A stretch of 64,000 nucleotides of DNA from Vogesella sp. XCS3 (GTDB taxonomy: Bacteria; Pseudomonadota; Gammaproteobacteria; Burkholderiales; Chromobacteriaceae). The stretch is taken from NCBI RefSeq assembly GCF_020616155.1, contig NZ_CP085530.1:3492501-3556500 (forward strand), read 5' to 3'. A program made the position numbers and the translations under genes. The notes under the pieces were generated by a model. It was not told the DNA's origin. It ran no database searches and saw only the letters and a list, made by a program, of their open reading frames with translations. Below are positions 3,642 to 61,384 of the stretch, piece after piece (position 1 is the first letter of the stretch; every line of letters starts with the position of its first letter).

Positions 3642-5921
3642 CTATACGGTAGTGGCCAGTTTGCTGCGCAGGCGCTGTGTGACGGTCACCATGCGTTGCA
3701 GTGCTGCTTCGGCTTCGGGCCAGCCGCGGGTTTTCAGGCCGCAGTCCGGGTTGACCCACAGCCGTTGCGCGGGGATTACATCCAGTGCCTTGTTGAGCAG
3801 TTTCTCCAGTTCGTGTTCGGCTGGAATGCGCGGGCTGTGGATGTCGTACACGCCGGGGCCGATTTCGTTGGGGTAGGCAAAGCTGGCAAAATCACGCAGC
3901 AGTTCCATGTCCGAGCGCGAGGTTTCTATGGTAATCACGTCGGCGTCCAGTGCGGCGATGGCCGGCAGGATGTCGCCAAACTCCGAGTAGCACATATGGG
4001 TGTGAATCTGCGTGCTGTCATCGACGCGGGCGCACGACAGGCGGAACGCTTCGCCAGCCCAGGCCAGGTAGGCATCCCAGTCGGCACGCTTTAGCGGCAG
4101 GCCTTCGCGCACGGCTGGCTCGTCGATCTGGATCACTTTGATGCCGGCGTTTTCCAGGTCCAGTACTTCGTCGTTGATGGCGAGCGCAATCTGGCGGCAC
4201 ACCTCGCTGCGCGGCAGGTCATCGCGGACAAAGCTCCACTGCAGGATGGTTACCGGGCCGGTGAGCATACCTTTCACCGGGCGCGGGGTCAGGCTTTGGG
4301 CGTACACAGACCAGGCCACGGTCATGGCTTGCGGGCGGGCGACGTCGCCAAAAATCAGCGGCGGTTTCACGCAGCGGCTGCCATAGCTTTGCACCCAGCC
4401 GTATTCGGTAAAGGCAAAGCCTGCCAGCTGTTCGCCAAAGTACTCCACCATGTCGTTACGCTCGGCTTCGCCGTGCACTAGCACATCGATATCCAGTGCC
4501 TCCTGCTTGCGGATCACCAGCTCGATTTCGGCTTTCATGGCTTGTTGGTAAGCGGCGGCATCGAGCTCGCCGCGTTTGAAGGCGGCACGTGCGCTGCGGA
4601 TCTCGGCGGTCTGCGGGAACGAGCCAATGGTGGTGGTAGGTAGCAGCGGCAGCTTCAGCCAGGCGGCCTGGGCAGCGGCGCGTACCGGGTAAGGGCTGTG
4701 GCGGCGGTCGCTGTTTGCCGGCAAGCTGGCCACGCGTTCGGCGACATCGGCACGGTGGATACGCGGGTGCTGGCGGCGTTGCTGGCTGGCAAAGTCGCTG
4801 GCGGCCAGCTCGTTGCTGATGCTGTCTTGCCCTTGCTGCAGGCCGCGTTTGAGCAGTTTGAGTTCGTTGAGCTTTTGTACTGAAAACGCCAGCCAGCTCT
4901 TCAGGTCTACATCCAGCTGCACTTCCTGCGCCAGATCTACCGGGGTATGCAGCAGGCTGCAGCTTGGGGCCAGCCATAGCTGATCGCCCAGCAGTTCGCG
5001 CAGCTTGGCGGCACTTGCCAGCGTGGCGGACAGGTTATTGCGCCAGATATTGCGGCCATCAATCAGGCCTGCCGACAGCACGCGGCCTTGCGGCCAACCT
5101 TGCAGCAGGGTGGCCAGCTGTTCCGGTGCACGCACCAAGTCCAGATGCACGCCGGCTAGTGGCAGGCTGTGCAGCAGGTCGGCATGCTCGGCCACGCTGC
5201 CGAAGTAGGTGGCCAGTAGCAGCTTGAGCGGCGTCGCCGCCAGCGTTTGATAGGTGATGTGGAAGGCGGCGAGCCATTCGGCCGGTAGGTCCAGCGCCAG
5301 GATGGGTTCGTCCAGCTGCACCCAGTCCACTTTCGCGTCGTTCAGCGCGCCCAGCAGCGCCTGGTAGCTGCGCAGCAGGGCCGGCAGCAGGCTGAGGCGA
5401 TCGAAGTCGGCGCCTTTGCACTTGCCCAGCCACAGCAGGGTAAGCGGGCCGACCAGCACCGGCTTGGCTTTCAGGCCCAGCGCCTGCGCTTCGGCTACTT
5501 GTGCCAGCAACGGGGCGGGGTTGGCCGCAAAGGGGGTATTGGCGTGCCACTCCGGTACCAGGTAGTGGTAGTTGGTATCGAACCACTTGGTCATTTCCAG
5601 CGCATGCTGGCTGGCATTACCGCGTGCTAGCTCAAAGTACTGTGCCTGGCTGAGGTTGGCCGCATCGAAGCCGAAGCGCGGCGGGATAGCGCCAACCAGA
5701 ATTTGCGCATCCAGTACGTGGTCGTACAAGGAGAAGTCGCCTACCGGGCTCAGGTCGACGCCGGCGCCTTTTTGCAGCAGCCAGTGGCGCTGGCGCAATT
5801 CGCGTGCGCCTTGCTGTAGCGCTTGCTCGCTGACGTCGCCACGCCAGTATTGCTCCAGCAGGAATTTCAGTTCGCGCTTGGCGCCGATGCGGGGAAAACC
5901 TAAAAGATGAACTTGGCTCAT
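3642..5921 (-). CDS. metE: Cobalamin-independent methionine synthase MetE
   Basis: 5-methyltetrahydropteroyltriglutamate-homocysteine methyltransferase catalyses the last step of methionine synthesis without B12. It is 759 residues, matching the usual ~755. It starts [13 protein letters not shown], the classic N-terminus. The C-terminal catalytic half shows [54 protein letters not shown] (zinc ligands) and [12 protein letters not shown] (zinc Cys). The start at 5921 is set by homology and an AAAGG site; the frame extends to 6008 but that part is not MetE-like. It is divergent from metR. It carries three copies of the GTTGGCCGCA word (5089, 5520, 5655). Confidence 0.97.
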
Positions 5922-5976
5922 GTGGAATGCCTTTCGTGATGAATGTTGTGCATTCAGCATGCGGCAACTACAATCA

Positions 5977-5989
5977 TGAAGCAATTTCA
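5977..5989. promoter_or_regulatory. MetR-type operator between metE and metR
   Basis: TGAAGCAATTTCA fits the MetR consensus TGAAN5TTCA exactly. It lies in the 101-base gap between the divergent metE and metR starts. A second dyad, GAATG-N5-CATTC, spans about 5941-5955. MetR activates metE with homocysteine as coeffector; its use here is inferred from the match and the arrangement. Confidence 0.75.
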
Positions 5990-6022
5990 TTATTTTAACG
6001 TTGATCATTAAGGTGGTTCATA

Positions 6023-6946: not shown

Positions 6947-6965
6947 GGCTAGCCTGCCACCAGTA

Positions 6966-7001
6966 AAAACGGCACGTCCGCAAGCTGCGGCGTGCCGTTT
7001 G
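6966..7001. terminator. Bidirectional terminator between metR and the acetyltransferase gene
   Basis: AAACGGCACG pairs with CGTGCCGTTT, with an inner CCGCAAGCTGCGG hairpin. It separates two convergent genes. Confidence 0.75.
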
Positions 7002-7019
7002 CGTGTTGGCTGCCAATGG

Positions 7020-7538
7020 CTACTGGGCACCTAGCAGCTTGTAGAAATAGCGGGTGGTATGCAGGCTGCCATCCGGGCTGGCGGCGTAGGCCGGAATGTC
7101 ACCGGCGTGTACCCAGCCCAGCTTGGGGTAGAGGCTGGCCGCTACCGATGTGCTATCGGTATCCAGCACCAGCGTGCTGCAGCCGGCAGCCCAGGCTGCG
7201 TGTTCCGCCTGCTGCATCAGCTGGCGCGCTATACCCTGGCCGCGTGCCGTGCTGTGTACCATCAGTTTCTGGATTTCGCCACGGTGGCGGCCGTTGGCCT
7301 TACCGCATAGCGCCAGCTGGATGGTGCCGATAACCCGGCCTTGATCTTCTGCCACCCAGCAATGCAGCAGCGGGCCCAGCGCAGCTGCGACAGCTTGCCA
7401 GTAGTGTTGTGCTTCTTCGTGCGCTAGCGGTGCCAGAAAGCCCACCGAGGCGCCACCGTGTACGCTGTCTTGCAGTAGCGATACCAGTGCGGCCAACTGT
7501 GGCTCAGCGATGCTGTACAAAGGGCGGATGGTGATCAT
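7020..7538 (-). CDS. GNAT-family N-acetyltransferase
   Basis: A 172-residue GNAT fold protein. The acetyl-CoA pyrophosphate loop is visible as VHSTARGQGIARQLM (consensus RGxGIG), followed by LVLDTDSTSVAASLYPKLGW, the usual motif B region. Its start codon overlaps the ntrC stop (ATGA), so it is probably co-transcribed with ntrBC. The substrate is unknown; similar small acetyltransferases act on amino acids or antibiotics. Confidence 0.85.
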   Translation of the reverse strand: MITIRPLYSIAEPQLAALVSLLQDSVHGGASVGFLAPLAHEEAQHYWQAVAAALGPLLHCWVAEDQGRVIGTIQLALCGKANGRHRGEIQKLMVHSTARGQGIARQLMQQAEHAAWAAGCSTLVLDTDSTSVAASLYPKLGWVHAGDIPAYAASPDGSLHTTRYFYKLLGAQ

Positions 7539-8998
7539 TCGTGCTCCAGCCCCAGCTCCTGGATTTTGCGCGTAAGCGTGTTGCGGCCCCAGCCCAGCAG
7601 CTGTGCAGCTTCGACTTTACGCCCGCCGGTGTGTGCCAGGCCGCTCTTGATGCAGGTGCTCTCGAAGCGAGCGGTCAGGTCGTCGATGATGCCGGTTTCC
7701 CCTGCGGCCAACCTTTGGCTGACCTCGCGTGCCAGCAGCTGCAGCCAGTCGCCCTCTGCCTGTGCGGCTGCAGCAGGCAAGGGCGTGGCGGGCTGGGCGC
7801 TGGCCTCGGCGTCATGGCTATGGCTTGACGGCACAACCTCGACAGGCAGGCGGAACTCTAGCGGCAGGTCGGCGCTTTCCACGGTCTGGCCCGGCGCCAT
7901 CACGGTAATCCACTGGCACAGGTTTTCCAGCTGGCGCACGTTACCGGGGAAGGCGTACTGGCGCACAAAAGCCATGGCGCTATCGGACAGGCGCTTGGGC
8001 TCCACACCCAGGTTGGCCGCACTGCGCGACAGAAAGTGGCGTACCAGCAGCGGGATATCTTCGCTGCGTTCGCGCAGCGGCGGCAGGCGCAGGCGGATCA
8101 CGTTCAGGCGGTGGAACAAGTCCTCGCGGAACTGGCCTTGCTTGACGCGCTCCTCCAGGTGCTGGTGGGTCGCGGCGATGACGCGCACATTGGCCTTGAT
8201 CGGCGTATGGCCGCCTACGCGGTAAAAGTGGCCATCGGACAGCACGCGCAGCAGGCGGGTTTGCAGCTCGGTGGGCATGTCGCCGATTTCATCCAGAAAC
8301 AGCGTGCCACCTTCGGCCTCTTCAAAGCGGCCGCGGCGGCTGCCTACGGCGCCGGTAAAAGCACCTTTTTCGTGGCCGAACAGCTCGGATTCCAGCAGGT
8401 CTTTCGGAATCGCCGCGGTGTTCAGCGCGATAAACGGTTTGCTGGCGCGTACCGAGTGGCGGTGCAGCGCCTCGGCTACGCGTTCTTTACCGGTGCCGGA
8501 TTCGCCGGTAATCAGCACCGTCACGCTAGACTGCGACAGGCGGCCAATGGCGCGGAAAACGTCCTGCATGGCCGGCGCCTGGCCCAGCAGGGCCGGCATG
8601 GCTTCCGGGCTTTCGCCGACAGCGTCGCCGCTGCGGCTTTCGGCTAGCGCGCGTTCGATCAGCGCCACCGCCTGGTCTACGTCGAACGGCTTGGGCAGGT
8701 ACTCGAACGCCCCACCCTGAAAGGCCGAGACAGCCGAGTCCAGGTCGGAATGCGCCGTCATGATGATGACCGGTAGCGCGGGGTAGTCGGCTTTGACTTT
8801 GCCCAGAAATTTCAGGCCATCGGTGCCCGGCATGCGTACATCACTGATGATGACGCTGGGGATGGTGTCGTACAGGGCGTTCAGCGCATCGTCGGCGCTG
8901 GCAAAGCTCTGGTAGGCGATATTGCTGCGCGAGAGCGACTTTTCCAGCACCCAGCGGATGGCTTTGTCGTCGTCGATGATCCAGACCGTTTGCGTCAT
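7535..8998 (-). CDS. ntrC: Nitrogen regulation response regulator NtrC (GlnG)
   Basis: A 487-residue sigma-54 activator. The receiver domain has phospho-acceptor Asp53 (IISDVRMPGTDG). The AAA+ domain carries Walker A GESGTGKE and the sigma-54 contact loop GAFTGA. A C-terminal Fis-type helix-turn-helix follows (GRKVEAAQLLGWGRNTLTRK). NtrB, encoded 18 bases upstream, would phosphorylate it under nitrogen limitation. Its probable target, glnA, lies 1.9 kb further on with a sigma-54 promoter. Confidence 0.97.
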   Translation of the reverse strand: MTQTVWIIDDDKAIRWVLEKSLSRSNIAYQSFASADDALNALYDTIPSVIISDVRMPGTDGLKFLGKVKADYPALPVIIMTAHSDLDSAVSAFQGGAFEYLPKPFDVDQAVALIERALAESRSGDAVGESPEAMPALLGQAPAMQDVFRAIGRLSQSSVTVLITGESGTGKERVAEALHRHSVRASKPFIALNTAAIPKDLLESELFGHEKGAFTGAVGSRRGRFEEAEGGTLFLDEIGDMPTELQTRLLRVLSDGHFYRVGGHTPIKANVRVIAATHQHLEERVKQGQFREDLFHRLNVIRLRLPPLRERSEDIPLLVRHFLSRSAANLGVEPKRLSDSAMAFVRQYAFPGNVRQLENLCQWITVMAPGQTVESADLPLEFRLPVEVVPSSHSHDAEASAQPATPLPAAAAQAEGDWLQLLAREVSQRLAAGETGIIDDLTARFESTCIKSGLAHTGGRKVEAAQLLGWGRNTLTRKIQELGLEHE

Positions 8999-9016: not shown

Positions 9017-10069
9017 TTATTGATCGGGGCCGAACGGCATCAGTACCGTGAAGCAGGTGTAGCCCGGCCGCGATTCGAATTCGATGGTACCGCCATGCTG
9101 GTGCACAAAAGTTTGCGCCAGCGTCAGTCCCAGCCCGGTGCCCTCTGCCCGGCCTGTGACCAGCGGGTAGAACACATGGTTGCGGATTTCTTCCGGAATG
9201 CCGGGGCCGTTATCGATGATCTGCAATTTTAGTGCCAGGTTGTGACGCTTTCGCGCCAACGTGACCTGGCGTGCCACGCGGGTGCGAAAAACCAGCTCGC
9301 CGTTGCCTTGCATGGCTTGTACCGCGTTCTTGCCGATATTCAGTACCACCTGGATGAGCTGCTCTTTATCTGCGGCCAACATGGGCAGGCTGATGTCGTA
9401 GTCGCGCTTTACCAGCAAGCCTTGCGGGTATTCGGCCAGGATGATGCTGCGCACGCGCTCTAGTACTTCGTGAATATTCACGTCGTTGGCAATGTGGCGA
9501 CGGTGCGGTGCCAGCAGCCGGTCTACCAGCGACTGCAAGCGCAGGGCTTCTTCGCGAATCACGCCTGTGTACTCCAGCAGCTCGGGGCGATCGGCGATTT
9601 CGTGTTCCAGTAACTGGGCGGCACCACGGATGCCACCCAGCGGGTTCTTGATTTCATGCGCCAGGTTGCGGATCAGCTCGCGGTTGGCTTGCTGCTGCAG
9701 TAGCAGGCGCTCTTCGTTGACGATGCGCAGCTGTTGCTCGATAGGCCGCATTTCTACCAGCGCCAGGCGTACCGGCCCGTCGATCGGTGTCACGGTGAGG
9801 CCGATATGCAGCGGGTGGTCGCCTTCCGGCGAGATTTCCAGGTCGTGCTCGATGAAGCTGCCAGCGTGATCCAGCGCCATTTGCACGGCGTTTTTCAAGG
9901 CACGCGGGTGGTGGAAGTGCTCGTATAGCGTGTGTTTTTTCAGCCCTTTGTGGCTGATGCCCAGCAGGTTTTCACTGGCCGGGTTGGCATAGTGAAGCTG
10001 GCCGTTGCGCTCGACAATCATCACCGGCGTATCGAGCAGGTCGAGTCCGGCATACGGGTGTAGGGGCAT
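9017..10069 (-). CDS. ntrB: Nitrogen sensor histidine kinase NtrB (GlnL)
   Basis: A 350-residue cytosolic two-component kinase. It has an N-terminal PAS domain (about 10-110), a dimerisation/phospho-acceptor H box NLAHEIKNPLGG with His138, and an ATPase domain with N box NIGKNAVQAM, G1 DNGPGIPEE and G2 GTGLGL. There are no membrane segments, as expected for NtrB, which is switched to phosphatase by PII protein. It is followed by ntrC in the same transcript. Confidence 0.97.
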   Translation of the reverse strand: MPLHPYAGLDLLDTPVMIVERNGQLHYANPASENLLGISHKGLKKHTLYEHFHHPRALKNAVQMALDHAGSFIEHDLEISPEGDHPLHIGLTVTPIDGPVRLALVEMRPIEQQLRIVNEERLLLQQQANRELIRNLAHEIKNPLGGIRGAAQLLEHEIADRPELLEYTGVIREEALRLQSLVDRLLAPHRRHIANDVNIHEVLERVRSIILAEYPQGLLVKRDYDISLPMLAADKEQLIQVVLNIGKNAVQAMQGNGELVFRTRVARQVTLARKRHNLALKLQIIDNGPGIPEEIRNHVFYPLVTGRAEGTGLGLTLAQTFVHQHGGTIEFESRPGYTCFTVLMPFGPDQ

Positions 10070-10254: not shown

Positions 10255-10725
10255 CTACTTTGGTGCGGTGCTATTGCCTAGTTCTTTATTCAGCGCATCG
10301 ATATTGCGTTCGCGGTCGGTGACCGCGTCTTGCAGGCGTTGTAGCTGCGCTGCGGCGGTGCCTGGTTTGCGGCGGGCTTCGCTCAAAGCGGTGCGCGCGT
10401 CGCTCAGGGCTTTTTGTTCGTTCTCCAGCTCGGTTTGCAGGATACGGCGGCGCCCCTCGTCGCGGTTGCGTTGCGTGCCGGCGTCTACCGACGGTACGGC
10501 TACGTTGGCCGCAGGCGCGCGTTGGCGTACCGAGCCGTTGCGTGGCGTGATGCTGCCACGCGTACCTCCATCCGTGTTGGCCGGTGTAATCGAGATGGCC
10601 TGGGCCCCTGGCTGCGGCATATTGGTAAACGTAACGTGCCCGTCTTTATCAACATAGCGATAAATGGTGCTGGCCTGAGCTTGGGGTAGGCTGCAAAGGA
10701 GCAAGATGAACAGAGTACGACGCAT
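10255..10725 (-). CDS. DUF4124-domain exported protein with coiled coil
   Basis: A 156-residue protein with a signal peptide (MRRTLFILLLCSLPQAQA) and a DUF4124 motif (STIYRYVDKDGHVTFTNMP). The C-terminal half is charged and helical (about 85-150), likely coiled coil. Start 10725 is chosen for the signal peptide; an upstream in-frame ATG at 10746 is possible. It sits between glnA and ntrB on the same strand, an order seen in many betaproteobacteria. Function unknown; a periplasmic location is inferred. One GTTGGCCGCA copy lies at 10504. Confidence 0.8.
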   Translation of the reverse strand: MRRTLFILLLCSLPQAQASTIYRYVDKDGHVTFTNMPQPGAQAISITPANTDGGTRGSITPRNGSVRQRAPAANVAVPSVDAGTQRNRDEGRRRILQTELENEQKALSDARTALSEARRKPGTAAAQLQRLQDAVTDRERNIDALNKELGNSTAPK

Positions 10726-10846
10726 GGGGAAATAGGCGATAGTCATTGCAAACGCATGATAATTCAATCTCTTGCCGCTTGGCAGTGCCAATGCAAAAAA
10801 GCCGGAGCTGGCTGCGTGCTGCGGTTTGCCAGGCCTTGAGTAAATG

Positions 10847-13193: not shown

Positions 13194-14015
13194 ATGACTG
13201 ATCGTTACGCTGTAATTGGCAACCCTATTTCGCATAGCCAATCGCCTTTCATCCATAACGAATTTGCCAGCGCCACCGGCCAGGCTCTGCAGTACGAAAA
13301 ACTGTTTGCCGATATCGGCAAATTCGACGAAGTGGTATCTGCGTTTGTCGCTGCGGGTGGCCGCGGCCTGAACGTGACGCTGCCGTTCAAGGGCGATGCT
13401 TTCCGTTTTGCCCAGGAAGTCAGCGAGTGCGCCCGCCTGTCCGAGGCGGTCAATACCCTGAGTTTCCGTGATGGCAAGATTTACGGTGACAACACCGATG
13501 GCGTGGGCCTGGTACGTGACATCGTCGACAACCTGGACGTCGCCATTGCCGGCAAGCGCGTACTGCTGCTGGGGGCGGGTGGCGCGGTGCGCGGCGTACT
13601 GCCGACGCTACTGGCAGAAAAGCCGGCTACCCTGACCATTGCCAACCGTACCGTGGCCAAGGCCGAAGCGTTGGCCGCACAGTTTGCCAGCCTGGGCCAG
13701 ATCGAGGCGGCAGGCTATGAGGCGCTGGCTGGCCGCCAGTTCGATATCGTCATCAATGGCACGTCCACCAGCCTGCAGGGCGAGTTGCCACCTATGCCTG
13801 CCGGCATTTTTGCAGCGGGCGCGCTGGCTTACGACATGGTGTACAGCCGTGGTCTGACGCCATTCCTGCGCCGCGCCCAGAGCGAGCAGGCCGGTATGCT
13901 GGCCGATGGCCTGGGCATGCTGGTGGAGCAGGCGGCCGAGTCGTTCCGCATCTGGCGTGACGTGCAGCCGGAAACGCGCAAGGTGACCAATATGCTGCGC
14001 GAGGTACTGGCCTAA
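13194..14015 (+). CDS. aroE: Shikimate dehydrogenase AroE
   Basis: A 273-residue NADPH-dependent enzyme that reduces 3-dehydroshikimate to shikimate in aromatic amino acid synthesis. It has the shikimate-binding NPISHSQSPFIHN, catalytic Lys66 in NVTLPFKGDAF and Asp in YGDNTDGVGL. The NADP loop is GAGGAVRG, followed by the NRT of the adenosine-phosphate pocket. mtgA begins immediately after its stop codon. Confidence 0.97.
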   Translation: MTDRYAVIGNPISHSQSPFIHNEFASATGQALQYEKLFADIGKFDEVVSAFVAAGGRGLNVTLPFKGDAFRFAQEVSECARLSEAVNTLSFRDGKIYGDNTDGVGLVRDIVDNLDVAIAGKRVLLLGAGGAVRGVLPTLLAEKPATLTIANRTVAKAEALAAQFASLGQIEAAGYEALAGRQFDIVINGTSTSLQGELPPMPAGIFAAGALAYDMVYSRGLTPFLRRAQSEQAGMLADGLGMLVEQAAESFRIWRDVQPETRKVTNMLREVLA

Positions 14016-21311: not shown

Positions 21312-21321
21312 GTTGGCCGCA
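21312..21321 (+). repeat. GTTGGCCGCA word after the DedA gene
   Basis: One exact copy between the DedA stop codon and its terminator. It is intergenic, so it is not there for protein coding. Confidence 0.8.
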
Positions 21322-44620: not shown

Positions 44621-44630
44621 GTTGGCCGCA
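44621..44630 (+). repeat. GTTGGCCGCA word between dapA and the ABC-F gene
   Basis: One exact intergenic copy, between divergent promoters; it is not in a hairpin. Confidence 0.75.
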
Positions 44631-47481: not shown

Positions 47482-47492
47482 GGTTGGCCGCA
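47481..47492 (+). repeat. AGGTTGGCCGCA word after the FabG-like gene
   Basis: An exact 12-base copy starting on the stop codon's last base and followed 11 bases later by a terminator. Confidence 0.8.
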
Positions 47493-48618: not shown

Positions 48619-49323
48619 ATGAGCCTTGCCGACAAGCTAGCCCAGACCGAAGCCCTGCTGCAGGAAATTGCCCGCACGCATGGCAAGGTGGCTTTGGCCA
48701 ACAGCTTTGGCGCCGAAGATATGGTGCTGACGCATCTGATCGCCAAACTGTCACTCCCCATTGCCATTTTCAGCCTGGATACCGGCCGCCTGCCGCTGGA
48801 AACCTATGACCTGATGCAGAAAGTGGGCGAGGCCTACCCGGCTTACCCTATCCGTGTGTACTACCCGGACGCCGCCGCGCTGGAAGCTTACGTTAACGAG
48901 AACGGCATCAATGCCTTCTATAACAGCGTAGAGCAGCGTAAATCCTGTTGCCACATCCGCAAGATCGCCCCGCTCAAGCGCGCCTTGTCCGGCCTGGACG
49001 CCTGGATTACCGGCCTGCGCCGCCAGCAATCGCCGACCCGGCAAGACCTGGGCGACCGCGAGCACGACGCGGACAACGGCCTGATGAAGTACAACCCGCT
49101 GATCGAGTGGACAGAAAAAGACATCTGGGCCTACATCCGCGAGCACGGCGTGCCTTATAACGCCCTGCACGACAAACATGTGCCCTCCATCGGCTGTGCC
49201 CCCTGTACGCGCCCCATCGCCATGGGCGAGGATATCCGCGCCGGCCGCTGGTGGTGGGAAAACCCCGAATCCAAAGAGTGTGGCCTGCACGTGAAAGCCA
49301 GCCCGCTGAAACGCCCCGACTAA
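48619..49323 (+). CDS. cysH: Assimilatory adenylyl-sulfate (APS) reductase, [4Fe-4S] type
   Basis: A 234-residue thioredoxin-dependent reductase making sulfite. The cluster cysteines are Cys110-Cys111 (KSCCHIRK) and Cys193/Cys196 (IGCAPCTRP), the pattern of APS rather than PAPS reductases. The catalytic Cys221 is in SKECGLHVK. LANSFGAEDMVL is the nucleotide site. Start 48619 follows AGGAGGCACCCG. The cysH-cysI-DUF934 order suggests one unit under CysB. Confidence 0.95.
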   Translation: MSLADKLAQTEALLQEIARTHGKVALANSFGAEDMVLTHLIAKLSLPIAIFSLDTGRLPLETYDLMQKVGEAYPAYPIRVYYPDAAALEAYVNENGINAFYNSVEQRKSCCHIRKIAPLKRALSGLDAWITGLRRQQSPTRQDLGDREHDADNGLMKYNPLIEWTEKDIWAYIREHGVPYNALHDKHVPSIGCAPCTRPIAMGEDIRAGRWWWENPESKECGLHVKASPLKRPD

Positions 49324-49332: not shown

Positions 49333-49357
49333 GTTGGCCGCAGTATGCGGCCAACCT
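49333..49357. repeat. Perfect inverted pair of the GTTGGCCGCA word
   Basis: GTTGGCCGCA, GTA, TGCGGCCAAC (arms 49333-49342 and 49346-49355) form a 10-bp hairpin with a three-base loop between cysH and cysI. No T tract follows, so it might attenuate or stabilise mRNA rather than end it. Confidence 0.9.
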
Positions 49358-52545: not shown

Positions 52546-53481
52546 ATGCGTGCGTTTTTGGGGAACCCCCGCCGTTTTGCGTTACCCCCTTGTGCCCTGA
52601 CTATCGGCAATTTTGACGGTGTCCATCTGGGGCATCAGCGTATGCTGGCCCGTTTGCGGGAGGAGGCGGCCGCGCGTGGCCTGCCTTCTGCCTTGTTGAC
52701 ATTCGAGCCGCACCCGCGCGAATTTTTTGCACGCCAGCAACCACCGGCACGCTTGGCTGTGCTGCGGGACAAGCTGCAGTTCCTGGCGCAACAGGCGCAG
52801 CTTGACTATGTATTTATCTACCGTTTTAACCATGCGTTCTCCCGCATGCCTGCCGGGCAGTTTGTCCAGCAGGTTTTGCTGGACGAGCTGCAGACCCGCT
52901 ATTTGTTGATCGGTGATGATTTCCAGTTTGGCGCGGATCGCAAAGGTGACTTTGCCCTGCTGCAGCAGCACCCCGGTTTTGTGACCGAGGCCATGCCCTC
53001 AGTGCTAGTGGCTGGTGAGCGTGCTTCCAGTACGCTGGTGCGCGACAGGTTGGCCGCAGGTGATCTGGATAGCGCGGGTCGGCTATTGGGCCGCCCGTAT
53101 CAGATCAGCGGCAAAGTCATGCATGGGCAAAAGCTGGGCCGTACTATCGGCTTCCCGACGGCAAATGTGCACCTGCCGCACCGTAAGCCCGCCCTGGAAG
53201 GCATTTTTGTGGTGCAAGTGGATACCCCGCATGGCCGTCTGGGCGGGGTGGCAAGCCTGGGTAAAAACCCGACGGTGACCACGACTCAGAACTACAAGCT
53301 GGAAGTGCATCTGTTTGATTTTCATGGCGACTTGTATGGCCAGCGAATTTCGGTGCACTTCCTGAAAAAACTGCGCGATGAAGCGCGCTACGATGATTTT
53401 AACGAGCTGGTGGCACAAATCGAACGCGATGCCGCCAGCGCCAAAACCTATTTGACCAGTTTGCAACGAGATCAGGCATGA
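52546..53481 (+). CDS. ribF: Bifunctional riboflavin kinase / FAD synthetase RibF
   Basis: A 311-residue enzyme converting riboflavin to FMN and FAD. N-terminal nucleotidyltransferase ([15 protein letters not shown], then [10 protein letters not shown]) and C-terminal flavokinase ([14 protein letters not shown]). ATG 52546. It overlaps ileS by four bases, giving the common order ribF-ileS-lspA-ispH. Confidence 0.96.
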
Positions 53482-56258
53482 GCATCGACTACCGTAAAAC
53501 CGTCAACCTGCTGGATACACCGTTCCCTATGCGCGGTGATCTGGCCAAACGTGAACCCGCCTGGCTGAAGCGCTGGACCGAGCAGCAGCGTTACCAGAAG
53601 CTGCGCAAAATGGCGGCTGGCCGACCCAAGTTCATCCTGCATGATGGCCCACCGTACGCCAACGGCGACATTCACATCGGCCATGCGGTTAACAAGATCC
53701 TGAAGGACATCATCGTTCGTTCCAAAACGCTGTCCGGTTTTGACGCGCCTTATGTACCCGGCTGGGATTGCCACGGCCTGCCTATCGAGCTGATGGTAGA
53801 AAAGCTGCACGGCAAGGATATCCCTGCGGCCAAGTTCCGCGAGCTGTGCCGCGAATACGCGCACGAGCAGATTGCCCGCCAGAAGAAAGACTTCATCCGT
53901 CTGGGCGTACTGGGCGACTGGGACAACCCGTACCTGACGATGGACTTCAAGACTGAAGCCGACATCGTGCGCACCCTGGGCAAGATTTTTGAAAACGGCT
54001 ACCTGATGAAGGGTGAAAAGCCGGTGCACTGGTGTATCGAGTGCGGCTCTGCCCTGGCCGAAGCAGAAGTGGAATACGAAGACAAAACCTCCCCGGCTAT
54101 CGACGTCGGCTTCCGCGTGGTGGATACCGACAAGTTGGCCGCAGCCTTTGCCGCGGCCAACGTAGAAGGTGCCATGGCCGTGATCTGGACCACCACGCCG
54201 TGGACCCTGCCGGCCAACCAGGCGGTATCGGTCAGCGCCAAGCTGGTTTACCAGTTGGTGGAGTGCGCCAAGGGCAAGCTGATCCTGGCCAAGGACCTGG
54301 TGGAAGCCACCATGAAACGCTACGGTGTGGAAAGCTACACCGTGCTGGGCGAAACCACCGGCGACAAGCTGGAACTGCTGCGCCTGGCGCACCCGTTCTA
54401 CGCCCGTGAAGTACCGGTGATCTGCGGTGACCACGTAACTACCGATGCCGGTACCGGCCTGGTACATACCGCCCCGGCGCACGGCCTGGAAGACTTCCAG
54501 GTGGGTCAGGTCTACGGCATTCCCGTGGACAACCCGGTAGCCGACAACGGCCGCTACAAGTCCACCACCGAGCTGTTTGCCGGCCTGTCGGTATGGGAAG
54601 CCAATCCGAAAGTGATCGAAGTGCTGCAAGAGCGCGCTGCACTGGTACATCAGGACAAGCTGTTCCATAGCTACCCGCACTGCTGGCGCCACAAAACCCC
54701 GATCATCTTCCGCGCTACGCCGCAGTGGTTCATCGGCATGGACAAGGCCGGTAACGACGGCCAGGTACTGCGCCAGCGTGCCAAGCAGGCGGTGGATAGC
54801 ACCGAGTTTTTCCCGGCCTGGGGCCGTGCCCGACTGGAAGCCATGATCGGCAACCGCCCGGACTGGTGCGTATCGCGCCAGCGTAACTGGGGCGTGCCGA
54901 TGACTTTCTTTATCCACAAGGAAAGCGGCGAGCTGCACCCGCGTTCGGCCGAGCTGCTGGAGCAGGTAGCGCTGCGTATCGAGAAGCAGGGCATCGAAGC
55001 CTGGTTCAGCCTGGATGCTGCCGAGCTGCTGGGTGACGAGGCGGCCAACTACCGCAAACTTACCGACACGCTGGACGTGTGGTTTGATTCCGGCTCCACC
55101 CACTTTGCCGTGCTCAAGCAGCGCGCCGAGCTGGCGTGGCCGGCCGACCTGTATCTGGAAGGCTCCGACCAGCACCGCGGCTGGTTCCAGTCCTCGCTGC
55201 TGACCGGTTGCGCCACCATCGGCCGCGCGCCTTACCAGCAGCTGCTGACCCACGGTTTTGTGGTAGACGGCAAGGGCTTGAAGATGTCCAAGTCCAAAGG
55301 CAACGTGGTGGCACCGCAAAAGGTGAACGACAGCCTGGGCGCCGACATCCTGCGCCTGTGGGTCGCGTCGACCGATTACTCCGGCGAGCTGGCGATCTCG
55401 GACGAGATCCTCAAACGTGTCACCGAAAGCTACCGTCGTCTGCGCAATACCCTGCGCTTCTTGCTGGCCAACCTGTCGGACTTCAACCCGATGGAACACG
55501 CTGTGCCGTACGAGCGCCTGAGCGAGATCGACCGCTACGCGCTGATGATGGCCAAGGAAATGCAGGAGAAAATTACCGGCGAACTGTACCCGCGTTATGC
55601 CTTCCACCACTCGGTGCAAGACATCGTGAACTACTGCTCGGAAGACCTGGGCGCGTTCTATCTGGATATCCTGAAAGATCGCCTGTACACCACGGCCGCC
55701 GATAGTGCCGCACGCCGTAGCGCCCAGACCGCGCTGTACCACATCACGCGCAGCCTGTTGCTGTTGCTGTCGCCTATCCTGTGCTTTACCGCTGACGAGG
55801 CGTGGGAAGTGCTGCTGGGTAGCGATGAGGAAACCCCGCTGTTCCACGTATGGCACGAGTTCCCGAACCCGACCGTGGGTGCCGAAGAAGCGCTGGTTGC
55901 CAAATGGCAAGCCATCCGTGCCTTCCGTGCCCAAGTGAACAAGGAAATCGAAGCACTGCGTAGCGCCGACCAGTTGGGCTCTTCGCTGCAGGCCGAGCTG
56001 GCTGTCACCGCCGGTGGCGAGCTGTACCAGCACCTGGCCAGCCTGGGCGATGAGCTCAAGTTTGTGCTGATGGTGTCGCAGGTGAGCCTGACCGAAGCGG
56101 CCGAGACTGGCATCAGCGTGACGCCGTCCAGCCACGAGAAGTGCGATCGTTGCTGGCACTACCGTGCCGACGTGGGTACCCACGCTGGCCACGGCCATGT
56201 GTGCGGCCGCTGCGTAGACAATATCGACGGCGCAGGCGAGGCTCGTCTGCATGCTTGA
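53478..56258 (+). CDS. ileS: Isoleucyl-tRNA synthetase
   Basis: A 926-residue class Ia synthetase. HIGH motif [12 protein letters not shown] motif LKMSKSKGN, editing domain with [10 protein letters not shown], and C-terminal zinc finger CDRCWHY ... CGRCVDN. Length typical for bacterial IleRS type 1. It overlaps ribF and lspA at its ends. Confidence 0.98.
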
Positions 56259-56775
56259 GCAAGGCAAAATGGCCGGGGCGGCAGCCCCGGCGGCTGAACA
56301 GGCAGCCAGTGTGGCCAAGTGGTTCGTGCTGGCGGCTGCCATCATCGTGCTGGATCAGCTGACCAAGGTGTACTTCAACGGCAGCTACCAGTACGGCGAG
56401 CAGCGCGAGGTGATTCCGTCGCTGTTGAACTTCACCCTGCTGTATAACCCTGGTGCCGCGTTCAGTTTTCTGGCCGACGCCGGTGGCTGGCAGAAGTTCT
56501 TCTTTAGCGGCCTGGCGTTTGCCGTATCCGGCTGGCTAGGCTGGCAGATACTGCAGCGCCAGTTCGGCAGCCTGATGAACGTGGCCGCCGCCTTCATCAT
56601 GGGTGGGGCGCTGGGTAATGTGATAGACCGCCTGCTTCACGGCCACGTGATTGATTTTATCCAGGTGCACTGGCAGCAAAGCTGGTACTACCCGGCGTTC
56701 AATATTGCTGACAGCTTCATCTGCGTGGGTGCCGTGCTAATGGTGCTGGACAGCTTCAGGCAAACCAAACGCTGA
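56251..56775 (+). CDS. lspA: Lipoprotein signal peptidase LspA
   Basis: A 174-residue integral membrane aspartic protease with four membrane segments. Catalytic Asp126 ([10 protein letters not shown]) and Asp154 (FNIADSFI). The N-terminus carries about 20 extra Ala-rich residues before the first helix, longer than E. coli LspA; ATG 56251 overlaps ileS. A later start is possible but no ATG is well placed. Confidence 0.95.
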
Positions 56776-56782
56776 GCCAGCC

Positions 56783-56801
56783 TGGCCGCATGCGGCCAAC
56801 C
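56783..56801. repeat. Inverted pair of the GTTGGCCGCA word after lspA
   Basis: TGGCCGCA meets TGCGGCCA with no spacer, so the arms make a palindrome; the full ten-base word is TGCGGCCAAC at 56791-56800. It lies 8 bases past the lspA stop. A second small hairpin (GGCCGCCACAGGCGGCC, about 56812-56828) follows and is better placed as a terminator. Confidence 0.75.
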
Positions 56802-56850
56802 CTGGCTAACAGGCCGCCACAGGCGGCCTCTTTCATGAAAAGGATTACCG

Positions 56851-57795
56851 ATGACGAAGACCATCATGCTGGCTAACCCGCGCGGCTTCTGTGCCGGGGT
56901 GGACCGCGCCATCGCCATCGTCGAGCGCGCGCTGGAAAAATACGGTGCGCCGATTTATGTGCGCCACGAAGTCGTGCATAACCGTTTCGTTGTGGACAAC
57001 CTGCGTGCCAAAGGGGCGATCTTCATCGAAGAGCTGAAAGACGTGCCGGCCGGCAGCACGCTGATCTACTCGGCCCATGGTGTGCCGCTGTCGGTACGCG
57101 AGGAGGCCGAAGCGCTGGGCCTGACCGTGTACGACGCCACTTGCCCGCTGGTGACCAAGGTGCATGTCGAGGTAAAACGCATGCACCAGGCCGAGATGGA
57201 GATCATCATGATCGGCCATAAAGGCCACCCCGAGGTGGAAGGCACCATGGGGCAGGTGCATAGCCGCATGTATCTGGTGGAGTCGGTAGACGATGTGGCC
57301 ACGCTGCAGGTAGCCAACCCCGCAGCGCTGTCCTACGTGAGCCAGACCACGCTGTCGGTGGACGAAACGCGCGATATCATCGCCGCGCTGAAGGCTCGCT
57401 TCCCGGCTATCCACAGCCCGAAGAAAGACGACATCTGCTACGCCACGCAAAACCGCCAGGATGCGGTAAAAGTACTGGCTGACGAGTGCGATATCGTGGT
57501 GGTGGTGGGCTCGCCCAATAGCTCCAACTCCAACCGCCTGCGCGAAGTGGCGGCGTTGAAAGGCGTGGATGCCTATATGGTAGACAACGCCAGCCTGCTG
57601 CAAGCCGCGTGGTTTGACGGCAAGCAGCGCGTAGGGGTAACTGCCGGTGCCAGCGCCCCGGAGGTGCTGGTTCAGGCGGTCATCGAGCAGATCAAGGCCT
57701 TTGGTGCCGACACGGTGAGCGAGCTGGATGGCGTGGAAGAGCACATTACCTTCGCGCTGCCGCCGGGCCTGCGCGACGCCAAGCCCGCAGCCTGA
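56851..57795 (+). CDS. ispH: 4-hydroxy-3-methylbut-2-enyl diphosphate reductase IspH
   Basis: A 314-residue Fe-S enzyme, last step of the MEP isoprenoid pathway. Cluster cysteines Cys14 ([12 protein letters not shown]), Cys98 (YDATCPLV) and Cys196 ([11 protein letters not shown]). The HGV and SAHGVP segments and SSNSNRL are typical. Likely expressed from its own start after lspA. Confidence 0.97.
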
Positions 57796-57814
57796 TATAG
57801 CGCTAGCAGGATGA

Positions 57815-57849
57815 AAAAGCGGCCAACCCGTTAAAGGTTGGCCGCTTTT
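57815..57849. terminator. Terminator built from two facing GGTTGGCCGC words
   Basis: AAAAGCGGCCAACC, CGTTAAA, GGTTGGCCGCTTTT. A 14-bp perfect stem whose core is the repeated word (last base T instead of A), with A and T tracts; it separates convergent ispH and the EamA gene. Confidence 0.93.
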
Positions 57850-57877
57850 CTTATGCTGCCGTGGCGCAGGCCAGGGT

Positions 57878-58777
57878 TCAAGCGCGTGCCGTGCGCAGGC
57901 CAGGGATAGGTAGCTTTTGCAGTAGCAGCCCGCCCAGAATCAAGCCCAGGCCGGTGAGGGTGCTGGGCAGGATGGGCTCGCCCAGCAGCGTGCTGATCAG
58001 CATCAGCGACAGGATGGGCGACAGGAAGATCAGGTTGGCAATGCGCGCGGTACTGCTGGTGAGCTTCATGGCCGAGAGCCACAGCACAAAGGTAAAGCCC
58101 ATTTCCAGCGCGCCAACATAGGCGGCGCCCGCGATGCCTTGCCACGCTACCGGGGTCAGCTCGCCAGTGGCGGCGCACCATAGCAGGGTTAGCGGTAGCG
58201 ATAACAGGAAGTTCAGCGTGAGGCCCATTACCGGCTCGCGCTCGTCTTTGGCGTTGAACAGCCAGTAGCCCGCCCATAGCAGGGTGGACAGCAAGGCAAA
58301 GCCGACGCCGGCCAGGTTGCTGAAATTCAGCGCCAGCGGCGCGCCGCGCGTGGCGATGGTCAGCACGCCGCTATAGCACACCAATGCTGCCAGGCTGTCC
58401 TGCAGCTTGAGTTTTTGCCCCAGCACCGGTACGGCCAGCAGGGTCATGGTCAGCGCCCAGGTGTAGTTGATGGCCTGGGCTTCTTGCGCCGGTAGCAGGT
58501 CGTAAGCCTGGAACAGGATCAGGTAGTAGGCGAACGGGTTCACCGCGCCCAGTATGGCGCTGCGGCGCCAGTGCTGGCGCAGGGCGGCGGGAAGGGTGGC
58601 TAGCCGGCCCTGCCAGCCCAGTATGGCCAGCAGCGACAGCAGCGAGAACACGCTGGCGTACAGCACCAGCTGCGCCGGGCTGAGGTGCGCCAGGCTGAGC
58701 TTGAAGGCGCTGGCCACGGTGGACCAGGCCAGTACGGCGGATAAACCAAAAACGTAAGCTTTGTGTTGCGAAGTCAA
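57878..58777 (-). CDS. EamA/DMT-family transporter
   Basis: A 299-residue drug/metabolite-type exporter with about ten hydrophobic segments in two EamA repeats (WSTVASAFKLSLAHLSPAQLVLY and ALEMGFTFVLWLSAMKLTSS). The substrate is unknown. It overlaps the start of the nnr stop region by four bases (58774-58777), suggesting co-transcription. Confidence 0.88.
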   Translation of the reverse strand: MTSQHKAYVFGLSAVLAWSTVASAFKLSLAHLSPAQLVLYASVFSLLSLLAILGWQGRLATLPAALRQHWRRSAILGAVNPFAYYLILFQAYDLLPAQEAQAINYTWALTMTLLAVPVLGQKLKLQDSLAALVCYSGVLTIATRGAPLALNFSNLAGVGFALLSTLLWAGYWLFNAKDEREPVMGLTLNFLLSLPLTLLWCAATGELTPVAWQGIAGAAYVGALEMGFTFVLWLSAMKLTSSTARIANLIFLSPILSLMLISTLLGEPILPSTLTGLGLILGGLLLQKLPIPGLRTARA

Positions 58778-60252
58778 AATGCGGGGGCTCCTGCCTGTTT
58801 CAGGCGCTGGTTCAGTTCGTGGCTCATTAGTTGCAAGGTGGTGCTGGCACTCAGGCCGATGGGGCCACCTTGCGCGGCTTCGTACTGTTCGCCCGCGCAG
58901 GCGTGCAGGTCGGCCGCCAGATGGGCAGCATCAAGTAGGGACATGCCTTGTGCCAGCAGGGCGCAAATGGCGCCACCCAGCAAGTCGCCCTGGCCGGCTA
59001 CGGCTAGTGCCGGGCTGCCGTGTACCAGCAGGCGGTAAGGTTGGCCGCTACTGGCCAGCAGCGTGCCGCTGCCTTTGAGCAGAACGTTGCAGGCAAACTG
59101 CCGCGCAAGCTGCTGGGCGGCGGCGATGCGGTCGGCCTGGATCTGCTCGGTGCTGCAGTCCAGCAGGCGCGCGGCTTCGCTGGGGTGCGGCGTGAGCAGC
59201 GTAGGGTAGCTGCGCTGGCGCAGGCGTGCCTGTAGCTGGCTGTCGGCAGCCAGCAGGTTCAGCGCATCGGCGTCCAGTACCAGGGTGTTGTCGTGCAGCA
59301 GCAGCGCGTCCAGTGCCTGGTGCGCTTGGTCGCTTAGCCCCAGGCCGGGGCCGATCAGCATCACGTTGGCCGCAGGCACATTCATGCCGTCTTGCCAGGG
59401 GCGCAGCATCAGCTCGGGGGTGGCCGGGTCCAGTAGCAGTGCGTCTTGCGTATGCACAAATACTTTGCCTGCCCCCAGGGCCAAAGCAGCACGGCCAGCC
59501 AGAATGGCGGCGCCACTCATGCCGCGGGCACCGCCAATCACACTGACGCTGCCGTAGCTGCCTTTGTGGCTGCTGTGGCGGCGCTTTAGCGCTAGCGCCG
59601 AGGGCACGGCAATGCTGCCGCTGGCTTCCGGGTAGTGGGCAGGCGGGCAATCCAGCAGGGCAATACTGGTGTGGCCGCAGTAGTCGCGCCCTTGGCCGGT
59701 ATACAGGCCAGGCTTGGGGCAAAGCAGGCTCAGGGTATGGCTGGCGCGTAGCGCGATGCCACGAGGCTGGCCTGTCCAGGCGTCCAGGCCACTGGGGATG
59801 TCGATCGCCAGCTTGGGGCAGGGCAGGCTGTTTAGTCGGCGAATCAGATGCAACCACGCGCCGCCGAGTGGCCGGCTCAGCCCGACGCCAAACAGGCCGT
59901 CCAGCAGCCAGGCGGGTGTGGTATCGCCCAGGGTTGGCCGCACATTGCCGCCCAACGTTTGCCAGCGTTGCAAGGCGGCTGCGACGGCAGCGTTTACCCG
60001 CGGCTCGGGTAGCAGGACTTCTACTGCGTAGCCGGCTTGTTTCAGCAAGCAGGCCGCCAGGATGGCGTCGCCACCGTTATTGCCGGGGCCTGCCGCCACC
60101 AGAATGGCCGCAGCGGGCTGGATATGCGCCTGGCACCATTGGGCAATGGCTTGGGCGGCGCGTTGCATTAACTGCAGGCCTGAGGCCTCTGCGTTTTGCT
60201 CCAGCTGCCGTAGTGCCTGCAAGGACAGCAGGCTGTGTGCTGGTGTGATCAT
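58774..60252 (-). CDS. nnr: Bifunctional NAD(P)HX epimerase / ADP-dependent dehydratase
   Basis: A 492-residue metabolite-repair fusion. The N-terminal YjeF_N epimerase half (LQALRQLEQNAEASGLQLMQRAAQ, VAAGPGNNGGDA) and C-terminal carbohydrate-kinase-like dehydratase half (LIGPGLGLSDQA, DADALNLLAADSQL, TPHPSEAARLL, AGQGDLLGGAI). Start 60252 (MITPAHSLL) overlaps the ubiX stop. The open frame to 60390 is not similar. Two GTTGGCCGCA copies. Confidence 0.94.
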   Translation of the reverse strand: MITPAHSLLSLQALRQLEQNAEASGLQLMQRAAQAIAQWCQAHIQPAAAILVAAGPGNNGGDAILAACLLKQAGYAVEVLLPEPRVNAAVAAALQRWQTLGGNVRPTLGDTTPAWLLDGLFGVGLSRPLGGAWLHLIRRLNSLPCPKLAIDIPSGLDAWTGQPRGIALRASHTLSLLCPKPGLYTGQGRDYCGHTSIALLDCPPAHYPEASGSIAVPSALALKRRHSSHKGSYGSVSVIGGARGMSGAAILAGRAALALGAGKVFVHTQDALLLDPATPELMLRPWQDGMNVPAANVMLIGPGLGLSDQAHQALDALLLHDNTLVLDADALNLLAADSQLQARLRQRSYPTLLTPHPSEAARLLDCSTEQIQADRIAAAQQLARQFACNVLLKGSGTLLASSGQPYRLLVHGSPALAVAGQGDLLGGAICALLAQGMSLLDAAHLAADLHACAGEQYEAAQGGPIGLSASTTLQLMSHELNQRLKQAGAPAF

Positions 60253-60863
60253 GCGCGGTCTTCTCCCCAGCGTGGCAGCAGGGTATGCGCGACGCCGACT
60301 TGGTCCATGATGCGTGCCACGACAAAGTCCACCATGTCCTGCACGCTTTGCGGGTGGGTATAAAAGCCGGGGCTGGGCGGCAGGATGCACACGCCCAGCC
60401 GTGCCAGCTTCAGCATGTTTTCCAGATGAATGGCCGAGAGTGGCGCCTCGCGCGGTACCAGTACCAGCTTGCGCTGTTCCTTGATGCTGACATCGGCGGC
60501 ACGCTCGATCAGGTTGTCGCTGCTACCGGCTGCGATGGCAGCCAGCGTACCCATCGAGCAGGGGCAGACCACCATGGCATCTGCCGGGTTGGAGCCCGAT
60601 GCGGGTGGCGCAAACCATTCTTCACGCCCGTAGACGCGCAGCAGGCCTTCGGCTGGCTGGTATTGTGCTTCCAGCCAACTCTGAAAGGCGGCCGGGCGTG
60701 ACGGCAGGGTCAGGTTCATTTCCTGCTGTGCCACTACCTGGGCTGCCTGGGAATACAGTACCCATACGCGCACGCCGGCTGCGAGCAGGCACTCTATCAG
60801 GCGCAGGCCATAGGGCAGCCCGGAGGCGCCGGTCAGGGCGACGGTAATGGTTTGGCTTGGCAT
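60249..60863 (-). CDS. ubiX: Flavin prenyltransferase UbiX
   Basis: A 204-residue flavoprotein that prenylates FMN to make the UbiD cofactor for ubiquinone synthesis. ALTGASGLPYGLRL at the N-terminus, VVCPCSMGTLAAIAAGSSDNL, and KLVLVPREAPLSAIHLENML are diagnostic. No UbiD gene is in the window. Confidence 0.95.
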   Translation of the reverse strand: MPSQTITVALTGASGLPYGLRLIECLLAAGVRVWVLYSQAAQVVAQQEMNLTLPSRPAAFQSWLEAQYQPAEGLLRVYGREEWFAPPASGSNPADAMVVCPCSMGTLAAIAAGSSDNLIERAADVSIKEQRKLVLVPREAPLSAIHLENMLKLARLGVCILPPSPGFYTHPQSVQDMVDFVVARIMDQVGVAHTLLPRWGEDRA

Positions 60864-61384
60864 GGGGTGAGTTGCTCCAGCAGTTTCAGGGCCAGCAAGC
60901 CGGTGGCCATACTGGCCAGCAGGCTGCTAAGCATTAAAGGGGGTAGCAGCTGCCAGACCGCATCGTTGGGGATGAGCCATAGCCGCGCTAGCAGTAATTG
61001 TCCTGCAAGATGGGCCATGCCGGCCAGCATACTGTGGCTCAGCACACTGAAATAGCGTGCCGGCAGATGGCTGGCCAGTCCCAGCATCAGCACGCTGCTT
61101 GCGCCGCCCGCCAAGCTTAGCCAAAAACCGGGGGTAAACAGGCTGCCCAGCATCAGTCCGGCGGCCACGATGCGCAGCAGGCTCACCCATACGGCGGCAC
61201 GCCAGCCTAGCTGGTACAGGGCAATCAGGGTAACGATATTGGCCAGGCCGGGTTTGATGCCGGGCAAGGGCGAGGGGATCGCCACCTCCAGTAGCGACAG
61301 AGCCAGGCCGACTGCGGCCAACCTGGCCAGCTGCAGGTCGTAGGCGCTGGGCTGTAGCGCGGTGTCAGTATGCCAGCGAGTCAT
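60833..61384 (-). CDS. Gx-transporter-family membrane protein
   Basis: A 183-residue protein with about five hydrophobic segments, of the Gx/heptaprenyl-diphosphate-synthase-component-I family (PF07456-like): LLEVAIPSPLPGIKPGLANIVTLIAL. It overlaps ubiX by 31 bases and is preceded by a NusG_II gene overlapping by 20. This pair is seen together in several lineages and has been linked to quinone or flavin-based extracellular electron transfer; here only the pairing is observed. Confidence 0.8.
   Translation of the reverse strand: MTRWHTDTALQPSAYDLQLARLAAVGLALSLLEVAIPSPLPGIKPGLANIVTLIALYQLGWRAAVWVSLLRIVAAGLMLGSLFTPGFWLSLAGGASSVLMLGLASHLPARYFSVLSHSMLAGMAHLAGQLLLARLWLIPNDAVWQLLPPLMLSSLLASMATGLLALKLLEQLTPCQAKPLPSP

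Follow-up and report, generated by a model that had tools for sequence, protein, structure and literature searches.

Among the closest described systems are the DNA uptake sequences (DUS) of the Neisseriaceae. The available text of Frye et al. (PMC3630211) describes eight DUS dialects that share CTG at +6 to +8 and A at +10. It lists Chromobacterium and Pseudogulbenkiania among five genomes that lack an obvious DUS, dates the origin of DUS later than the C. violaceum split, and mentions an outgroup genome in which BLAST did not detect ComP. In papers of 2024-2025, as far as their accessible passages go (PMC11316581, PMC12061091, PMC12616744), the number of dialects, each with a CTG core, is still given as eight, and one of these papers adds seven possible dialects, which have CTG too. 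In the meningococcus 12-mer, bases 4-10 are critical and bases 3, 11 and 12 are dispensable (PMC3868556, in excerpt). ComP is the minor pilin with experimentally established sequence specificity, and the ComP of Neisseria has two disulfides, said to be essential, one of which holds a long C-terminal loop (PMC12616744, in excerpt). The present analysis concerns a stretch of 64,000 nucleotides from Vogesella sp. XCS3 (Chromobacteriaceae), referred to as the window, and a ten-base word over-represented in it, GTTGGCCGCA, together with its 12-base extension AGGTTGGCCGCA. It is very probable that AGGTTGGCCGCA is the DUS of Vogesella, being the local form of a set of words, AGGTTGGCCG followed by CA, AA or AG, that occurs in part of the Chromobacteriaceae and is read by a ComP-type receptor.

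The window corresponds to C1:3492501-3556500 of the XCS3 genome (G000), which comprises 3,889,382 bases in two contigs, C1 and C2. It holds 37 exact copies of GTTGGCCGCA, 29 on the plus strand and 8 on the minus strand, and 17 exact copies of AGGTTGGCCGCA; in 100 dinucleotide shuffles of the window, the means were 0.60 (maximum 3) and 0.02, respectively. These numbers reproduce the initial annotation, which had reported 37 ten-base words between 5089 and 61322 and 17 twelve-base words, where less than one ten-base copy was predicted by chance. Its statement that the copies lie in at least 20 genes and in gaps also holds, with 31 copies inside 23 genes, called by a simple codon-score gene caller written for this analysis, and 6 outside; only its GC content of about 62% has to be corrected, to 60.8%. 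In the whole genome, 2,279 copies were counted (1,173 and 1,106 by strand, which is balanced at p 0.17), compared to 11 copies (8 and 3) of the reversed word, and enrichment confined to the window is thereby ruled out. A sample of 464 kb, consisting of 20 regions of 20 kb plus the window, contains 272 copies, of which 202 are genic. The remaining 70 lie outside the genes called by the same simple caller, an excess over the 12.1% of the sample that is non-called sequence (binomial p 6e-10). The 31 coding copies of the window compare with 1.06 after synonymous shuffling, and the 202 genic copies of the sample with a mean of 6.81 and a maximum of 15 in 100 synonymous-codon reshuffles of the same genes. 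By reading frame, the genic copies are read as LAA in 76 cases, AAN in 72, VGR in 36 and the remaining three frames in 18 combined. Since the coding copies so far exceed the level after synonymous shuffling, the word is no coding artefact, and the use of all six frames likewise rules out an origin in codon or peptide preference. The two outcomes that the initial annotation had named as fatal to its proposal, enrichment in this window only or a count at codon-usage level, are both contradicted by these counts. The canonical DUS GCCGTCTGAA, which had not been noticed in the window before, is absent from both strands of the 464 kb, where 1.2 copies were expected. The over-representation of GTTGGCCGCA is therefore confirmed as real.

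The word is rigid in its interior and more tolerant at its ends. In the 464 kb sample, each single-base variant at bases 2-9 of the ten-base word is found in only 0-7 copies, compared to the 272 exact ones; base 1 can be C (23 copies), and at base 10 the variants with C, G and T reach 50, 53 and 23 copies. Upstream of the word, A at position -2 is enriched in all profiled carriers, namely XCS3, the loci of named Vogesella species and the genomes G034, G037, G038, G045 and G048 (G010 was left out of this profiling). G at -1 stands out in G038 and G034, is less marked in XCS3 and G045, and barely exceeds background in the loci of named Vogesella species, in G048 and in G037. Of the 70 copies outside genes, 36 are extended to the full 12-mer, as are 56 of the 202 genic copies, and the genic copies comprise 120 in sense and 82 in antisense orientation. 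Inverted pairs of the form GTTGGCCGC-N(2-20)-GCGGCCAAC number 77 in XCS3, where 14.8 are expected at random, and 65-125 per genome across all 13 Vogesella genomes; by the same gene calls, 12 of the 15 pairs sampled are extragenic, and TTTT follows 6 of the matches.

Copies are few in three regions when compared to the mean of 11.7 per 20 kb: a prophage stretch with tail sheath, portal and terminase genes (1 copy per 20 kb), the part of replicon C2 that was read (1 copy in 20 kb), and a stretch with genes of the bacteriophage exclusion (BREX) type and TerB (3 copies in 20 kb). This comparison is descriptive and not a blind test, only these three of the 20 regions having been annotated for their low counts. 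As regards the regions themselves, C2 is a second replicon or contig of 164,538 bases with a GC content of 53% and genes for DndB, a UvrD-like protein and DnaB (L116). The BREX/TerB stretch (L101, G000:C1:700001-720000) carries BrxC/D, TerB and helicase genes at 55% GC and three uptake words, and is likely an acquired defence island.

The distribution of the word was examined in 61 Chromobacteriaceae genomes, 13 of Vogesella (genus g1) and 48 of nine other genera (g2 to g10). All 13 Vogesella genomes carry GTTGGCCGCA in 1,871-2,895 copies; the other 48 have 8-58 copies, with 3-26 of the reversed word. De novo search for 10-mers in eight genomes of eight other genera, 100 kb each, recovered the same core with other ends in G034, G037, G038, G045 and G048 and nothing comparable in G002, G017 and G039; the same core was also found in a 60 kb sample of G010. 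The AG form, GTTGGCCGAG, has 1,940 and 1,590 copies in the two g5 genomes. The AA form, GTTGGCCGAA, has 2,168 and 579 copies in the two genomes of g6, 1,245 in the single genome of g7, 1,851 in that of g9, and 1,104, 893 and 183 in the three of g10. In g2, it reaches 1,368 copies in G010 and stays at background in the nine sister genomes, a clean loss or gain inside one genus. It can be seen that the ending follows the genus: CA in 13 of 13 Vogesella, AG in g5, and AA in g2 (1 of 10), g6, g7, g9 and g10. One genome with few copies, G036 of g6, mixes its ends (AA 579, AG 165); this mixture and the low counts of G036 and of G047 (g10, 183 copies) possibly represent decay or a dialect switch under way.

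Altogether, 23 of the 61 genomes carry one of the three words, ten of them outside Vogesella. The 38 without any comprise all 19 genomes of g3, 9 of 10 in g2, all 6 of g8 and all 4 of g4; two g8 genomes, G040 and G043, are slightly raised and are counted here as non-carriers. In an order-wide sample of 399 genomes, 13 of them from this family, the 386 from 50 other families reach at most 223 copies of GTTGGCCGMR, compared to at least 1,304 in the eight carriers that the sample includes. That the words characterise the whole family or order is ruled out by these 38 genomes and by the lack of enrichment in 386 of 386 genomes of other families. De novo search in seven non-carriers (G002, G003, G017, G022, G032, G039 and G042) gave a best 10-mer z of at most 10.8, compared to 126 in Vogesella, in samples of 60-100 kb each, a size at which a rarer word could escape; the samples of G036 and G046 were only 20 kb each.

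A candidate receptor is present in the same genomes. The XCS3 genome encodes a ComP-like minor pilin of 138 amino acids (G000:C1:3106142-3106558), neighboured by a FimT-like gene, a small open reading frame and aroB, with pilQ-M nearby. Profile search located such a pilin near aroB-pilQ in all 13 Vogesella genomes, those of G050 and G059 being found by the profile (A1) without belonging to its rows. A scan of named genomes with the candidate gave ten loci, from seven named Vogesella species, 'Beta proteobacterium L13', whose pilin is the closest at 95% identity, and two metagenome-assembled genomes of Neisseriaceae. The candidate scores above cut-off with PF07963 and PF16732 (the latter 32.4 vs 27.3 bits). 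By sequence, it is closer to solved ComP (PDB 5hz7, 2m3k, 2nba) than to other pilins, and the stretch AxFxExxYxxxGxxKxTxxxWPxLP is common to it and Neisseria ComP; for the two Vogesella pilins examined, the best match is Neisseria ComP by sequence or, less clearly, by fold. The ComP-like gene has a FimT-like partner in each of the 13 Vogesella genomes, and the product of this partner diverges as fast as the ComP-like protein (34-51% identity in distant species, where AroB keeps 73-86%). The initial annotation had proposed a search for competence genes beside a ComP-like pilin, and these are largely present, with DprA in 13 of 13 and ComEC in 11 of 13 Vogesella genomes. A PilE-like pilin encoded in the fimT cluster (112281 in XCS3) was considered as a separate candidate and set aside as receptor; among solved structures it matches PilE (4noa) best, and its 22 matches at E <= 0.01 include no ComP.

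According to the proposed mechanism, the ComP-type type IV minor pilin on the competence pilus would bind double-stranded DNA bearing the word, and retraction of the pilus would draw this DNA through PilQ. ComEC would pass one strand into the cytoplasm, where DprA and RecA would recombine it. Fragments bearing the word would be taken up and recombined more often, and the word would accumulate wherever the protein sequence tolerates it. Word pairs may, in addition, be re-used as transcription terminators.

Several observations weigh against the identification as a DUS read by a ComP-type receptor. The likeness to known DUS is only modestly unusual. For the comparison, the 12-mers of the AT, AG, eik and sim dialects were taken from print, and those used for muc, king, king3 and wad agree with the published dialect descriptions. 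In register, the AA form AGGTTGGCCGAA agrees with AG-mucDUS and AG-simDUS at 9 of 12 letters and the Vogesella form at 8; the best-of-eight chance is about 0.005 for 9 of 12, about 0.03 for 8 of 12, and about 0.01 for 9 of 12 when shifts are allowed. At +6 to +8, the words read CCG instead of the CTG core of all eight dialects (PMC3630211, in excerpt), and base 11 of the 12-mer is as rigid in Vogesella as the inner bases, although dispensable in the meningococcus (PMC3868556, in excerpt). The Vogesella pilin has one cysteine pair compared to the two disulfides of Neisseria ComP (PMC12616744, in excerpt): two cysteines are found in the globular part of 12 of the 13 pilins, and three in that of G059. 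Its top fold match is ComP, yet the scores of the two remaining ComP entries, 8.7 and 7.9, do not stand out from those of other pilins. Profile A1 is built from 11 rows, so that 11 of the 13 pilins helped to find themselves. The Pfam ComP_DUS model, PF16732, matches 61 of 61 family genomes, word or no word; it is therefore not diagnostic and was dropped as a marker of a DUS receptor. The ComP-like gene of the non-carrier G020 scores 92.3 bits, nearly the same as the 92.1 bits reached by the gene of the carrier G045. ComEC was not found in two of the 13 Vogesella genomes, G057 (330 contigs, 98% complete) and G058 (88% complete). A slight excess on the leading-like strand, 156 vs 115 copies (p 0.015), is seen when sampled regions are assigned by the sign of GC skew.

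The last point has a bearing on another explanation, namely that the word is a short chromosome-maintenance motif, such as Chi or the FtsK-orienting polar sequences (KOPS), recognised by a protein of recombination or segregation. The word is indeed short, frequent and genome-wide, and the strand excess in the sample is accompanied by the 29 vs 8 copies of the window. However, KOPS and Chi are strongly polar along the replication arms, and no such polarity is seen in the near-symmetrical strand totals of the genome or, beyond the slight excess, in the 464 kb that were mapped; the preference for sense orientation in genes can explain part of the small bias. The inverted pairs outside genes and the low counts in the prophage and C2 fit uptake better, and the word differs between related genera while being constant in Vogesella. 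A maintenance motif is thus quite improbable. The inverted pairs, by their number, their position outside called genes and the TTTT after some of them, would also suit an element that propagates itself as a terminator or RNA hairpin and has no role in uptake. Most copies, however, are genic and far above the synonymous-shuffle level, and a terminator does not depend on a fixed sequence, let alone on one whose end differs between genera; this explanation deserves still less belief than a maintenance motif. Least credible, to the point of being negligible, is that the word serves restriction-modification or epigenetic marking, or that it reflects a bias in codons or peptides. The palindrome GGCC inside the word is imaginable as a methylation site, but the word is non-palindromic, 10-12 bases long, and rigid at bases outside GGCC; for a codon or peptide bias, the copies occupy all six frames at about 30-fold the level of synonymous shuffling.

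More weight belongs to the possibility that the word is a true uptake sequence with another pilin as receptor, for example the adjacent FimT-like protein, although this too is unlikely. The constant pairing of the two genes and their equally fast divergence favour it, and the accessible text of PMC12616744 discusses DNA binding by Legionella FimT and mentions PpdA as proposed for Pasteurellaceae. The ComP-like protein, on the other hand, best matches the minor pilin of established sequence specificity. The FimT-like neighbour could form part or all of the receptor, and the two proteins may act jointly.

As judged from sequence comparison, the set of words is best read as working like a DUS with a ComP-type receptor and as forming a new, separate branch, not a ninth dialect, because the CTG core and the second disulfide are both absent. 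The initial annotation had suggested a single new word, an undescribed dialect in a Chromobacteriaceae-like lineage. The lineage is upheld by the genus Vogesella of the Chromobacteriaceae, with word and pilin in 13 of 13 genomes, but the lack of a CTG core makes the word part of another branch, and the word, though genus-wide, has at least two sisters elsewhere in the family. A further proposal, for and against which the chances appear evenly balanced, is that tagged uptake in the Neisseriales predates the split of Neisseriaceae and Chromobacteriaceae and has two branches, one with CTG and an undescribed one with TTGGCCG (CCG) that has at least three forms read by a one-disulfide ComP. The genus g3 (putatively Chromobacterium) and most of g2 (putatively Aquitalea) would then have lost the word and kept the ComP-like gene. 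If the second branch is indeed read by a one-disulfide ComP, neither the CTG core nor the second disulfide would be needed.

Within the window, whose positions are used in the following with the strand in brackets, the first 2208 bases are the end of a ribosomal RNA operon (23S from model position 950, and 5S). The first gene with copies, 3642-5921(-), has cobalamin-independent methionine synthase domains and holds the word at 5089-5098(-), 5520-5529(+) and 5655-5664(+), the first and third within 12-mers at 5089-5100 and 5653-5664. It is followed by 7488-7497(-) in gene 7020-7538(-), by 7703-7712(-) and 8012-8021(+) in the sigma-54 response regulator gene 7535-8998(-), both within 12-mers (7703-7714 and 8010-8021), by 9371-9380(-) in gene 9017-10069(-) and by 10504-10513(+) in the called gene 10255-10746(-). 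Gene 13194-14015(+) contains 13670-13679(+), and gene 16555-17370(+) contains 16852-16861(+) and 17220-17229(+), with 12-mers at 16850-16861 and 17218-17229. The copy 19783-19792(+) lies in gene 18782-19903(+), and 21312-21321(+) lies outside called genes, immediately 3' of gene 20691-21311(+). Further copies are 22464-22473(+) in gene 21846-22625(+), 23517-23526(+) in gene 22633-23586(+) with 12-mer 23515-23526, 25249-25258(+) and 25620-25629(+) in gene 25043-25801(+) with 12-mers 25247-25258 and 25618-25629, and 26493-26502(+) in gene 25801-27021(+) with 12-mer 26491-26502. The ten-base word alone is found at 28077-28086(+) in gene 27523-28755(+) and at 30004-30013(+) in gene 29294-30067(+), while 32064-32073(-), in the called gene 32044-32523(+), belongs to the 12-mer 32064-32075.

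Continuing along the window, the word is seen at 33054-33063(+) in gene 32595-33275(-), at 36636-36645(+) in the HD-domain gene 35431-36723(+), and three times in gene 38802-39659(+), at 38890-38899(+) (12-mer 38888-38899), at 39394-39403(+) and, at the very end of the gene, at 39647-39656(+) (12-mer 39645-39656). Copy 40354-40363(+) lies in gene 40165-40821(-), 44621-44630(+) outside called genes, and 47483-47492(+), of the 12-mer 47481-47492, just 3' of gene 46741-47481(+). An inverted pair at 49333-49355, composed of 49333-49342(+) and 49346-49355(-), begins 9 nucleotides past the stop of gene 48619-49323(+) and forms a hairpin in a terminator-like position. Copy 53049-53058(+) (12-mer 53047-53058) is in gene 52546-53481(+), and 54134-54143(+), in gene 53478-56258(+), has a 9-base opposite-strand partner that ends at 54161. 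Copy 56791-56800(-) lies outside called genes, 3' of gene 56251-56775(+). A further inverted pair, of the 9-base core GTTGGCCGC in outward order and followed by TTTT, occupies 57819-57845 in the intergenic space between genes 56851-57795(+) and 57878-58717(-). The last copies are 59365-59374(+) and 59933-59942(+) in gene 58774-60252(-), and 61313-61322(-), with 12-mer 61313-61324, in gene 60833-61384(-).

Other words were also found to be frequent. Two palindromes are over-represented in the 464 kb sample of XCS3, CGATATCG with 76 vs 25.5 expected and GGATATCC with 30 vs 9.3, on counts of both strands in which every site appears twice, and CGATATCG is also a top word in the relatives G003, G010, G022 and G032. 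In 100 kb of G045 (genus g9, L152-L156), a second, palindromic high-copy word exists alongside the uptake word, with 36 copies of GCTTAAGC vs 2.4 expected and 16 of TGCTTAAGCA vs 0.14, both strands being counted.

In the literature searched, from which subscription journals and supplements were outside the scope, Vogesella is not mentioned together with an uptake sequence. Among the papers on uptake sequences and Chromobacteriaceae, Neisseriales, Chromobacterium or Pseudogulbenkiania, no such word is mentioned in PMC3630211, PMC10715097 and PMC11316581 (in excerpt); a related word may be contained in Table S1D of PMC3630211, outside this scope, where over-represented 10-mers are given for the five genomes lacking an obvious DUS. 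The 12-mer AGGTTGGCCGCA is absent from the best-ranked literature string matches, which is no proof of absence, and natural competence of Vogesella is not the subject of any paper found, as judged by titles and the beginnings of abstracts. Another family with its own set of words and with ComP-like pilins, in which the core rule is broken and words were apparently gained or lost (as in g2, 1 of 10), provides a contrast for studying the way in which a pilin recognises a DNA sequence and the joint evolution of receptor and word. These environmental bacteria are offered as test organisms for uptake. The word also offers an inexpensive way to spot DNA that these genomes acquired recently, and its addition to donor DNA may aid transformation.

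Compared to the known systems, the Chromobacteriaceae words resemble the DUS of the Neisseriaceae in many respects. Both consist of 10-12 bases with an A(G) prefix, exist in about 2,000 copies per genome on both strands, have rigid inner bases and forms that follow the genus, and occur as inverted pairs; an intergenic excess and few copies in the prophage and second replicon are shared with Neisseria DUS. The candidate pilin is like Neisseria ComP in its prepilin motif, its match to PF16732 and its top sequence matches, less clearly in its top fold match, and differs from it in lying beside a FimT-like gene, a small open reading frame and aroB, near pilQ-M. The uptake signal sequences (USS) of the Pasteurellaceae are likewise proposed to label DNA as self for uptake throughout the genome, but they have an unrelated GCGG core and PpdA/ComN as receptor candidate (PMC12616744, in excerpt). 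One difference from AG-DUS, AGGCCGTCTGAA, is the inner TTGGCCG, where AG-DUS has CCGTCTG. The rule of A at +10 is kept by the CA and AA forms and broken by the AG form. The shared TTGGCCG takes up bases 4-10 of the 12-mer, the very positions critical in the meningococcus, and the forms vary at the last two bases, 11-12, as CA, AA or AG. This likeness of register and critical bases, though no proof, points to a common origin with the DUS of Neisseria.

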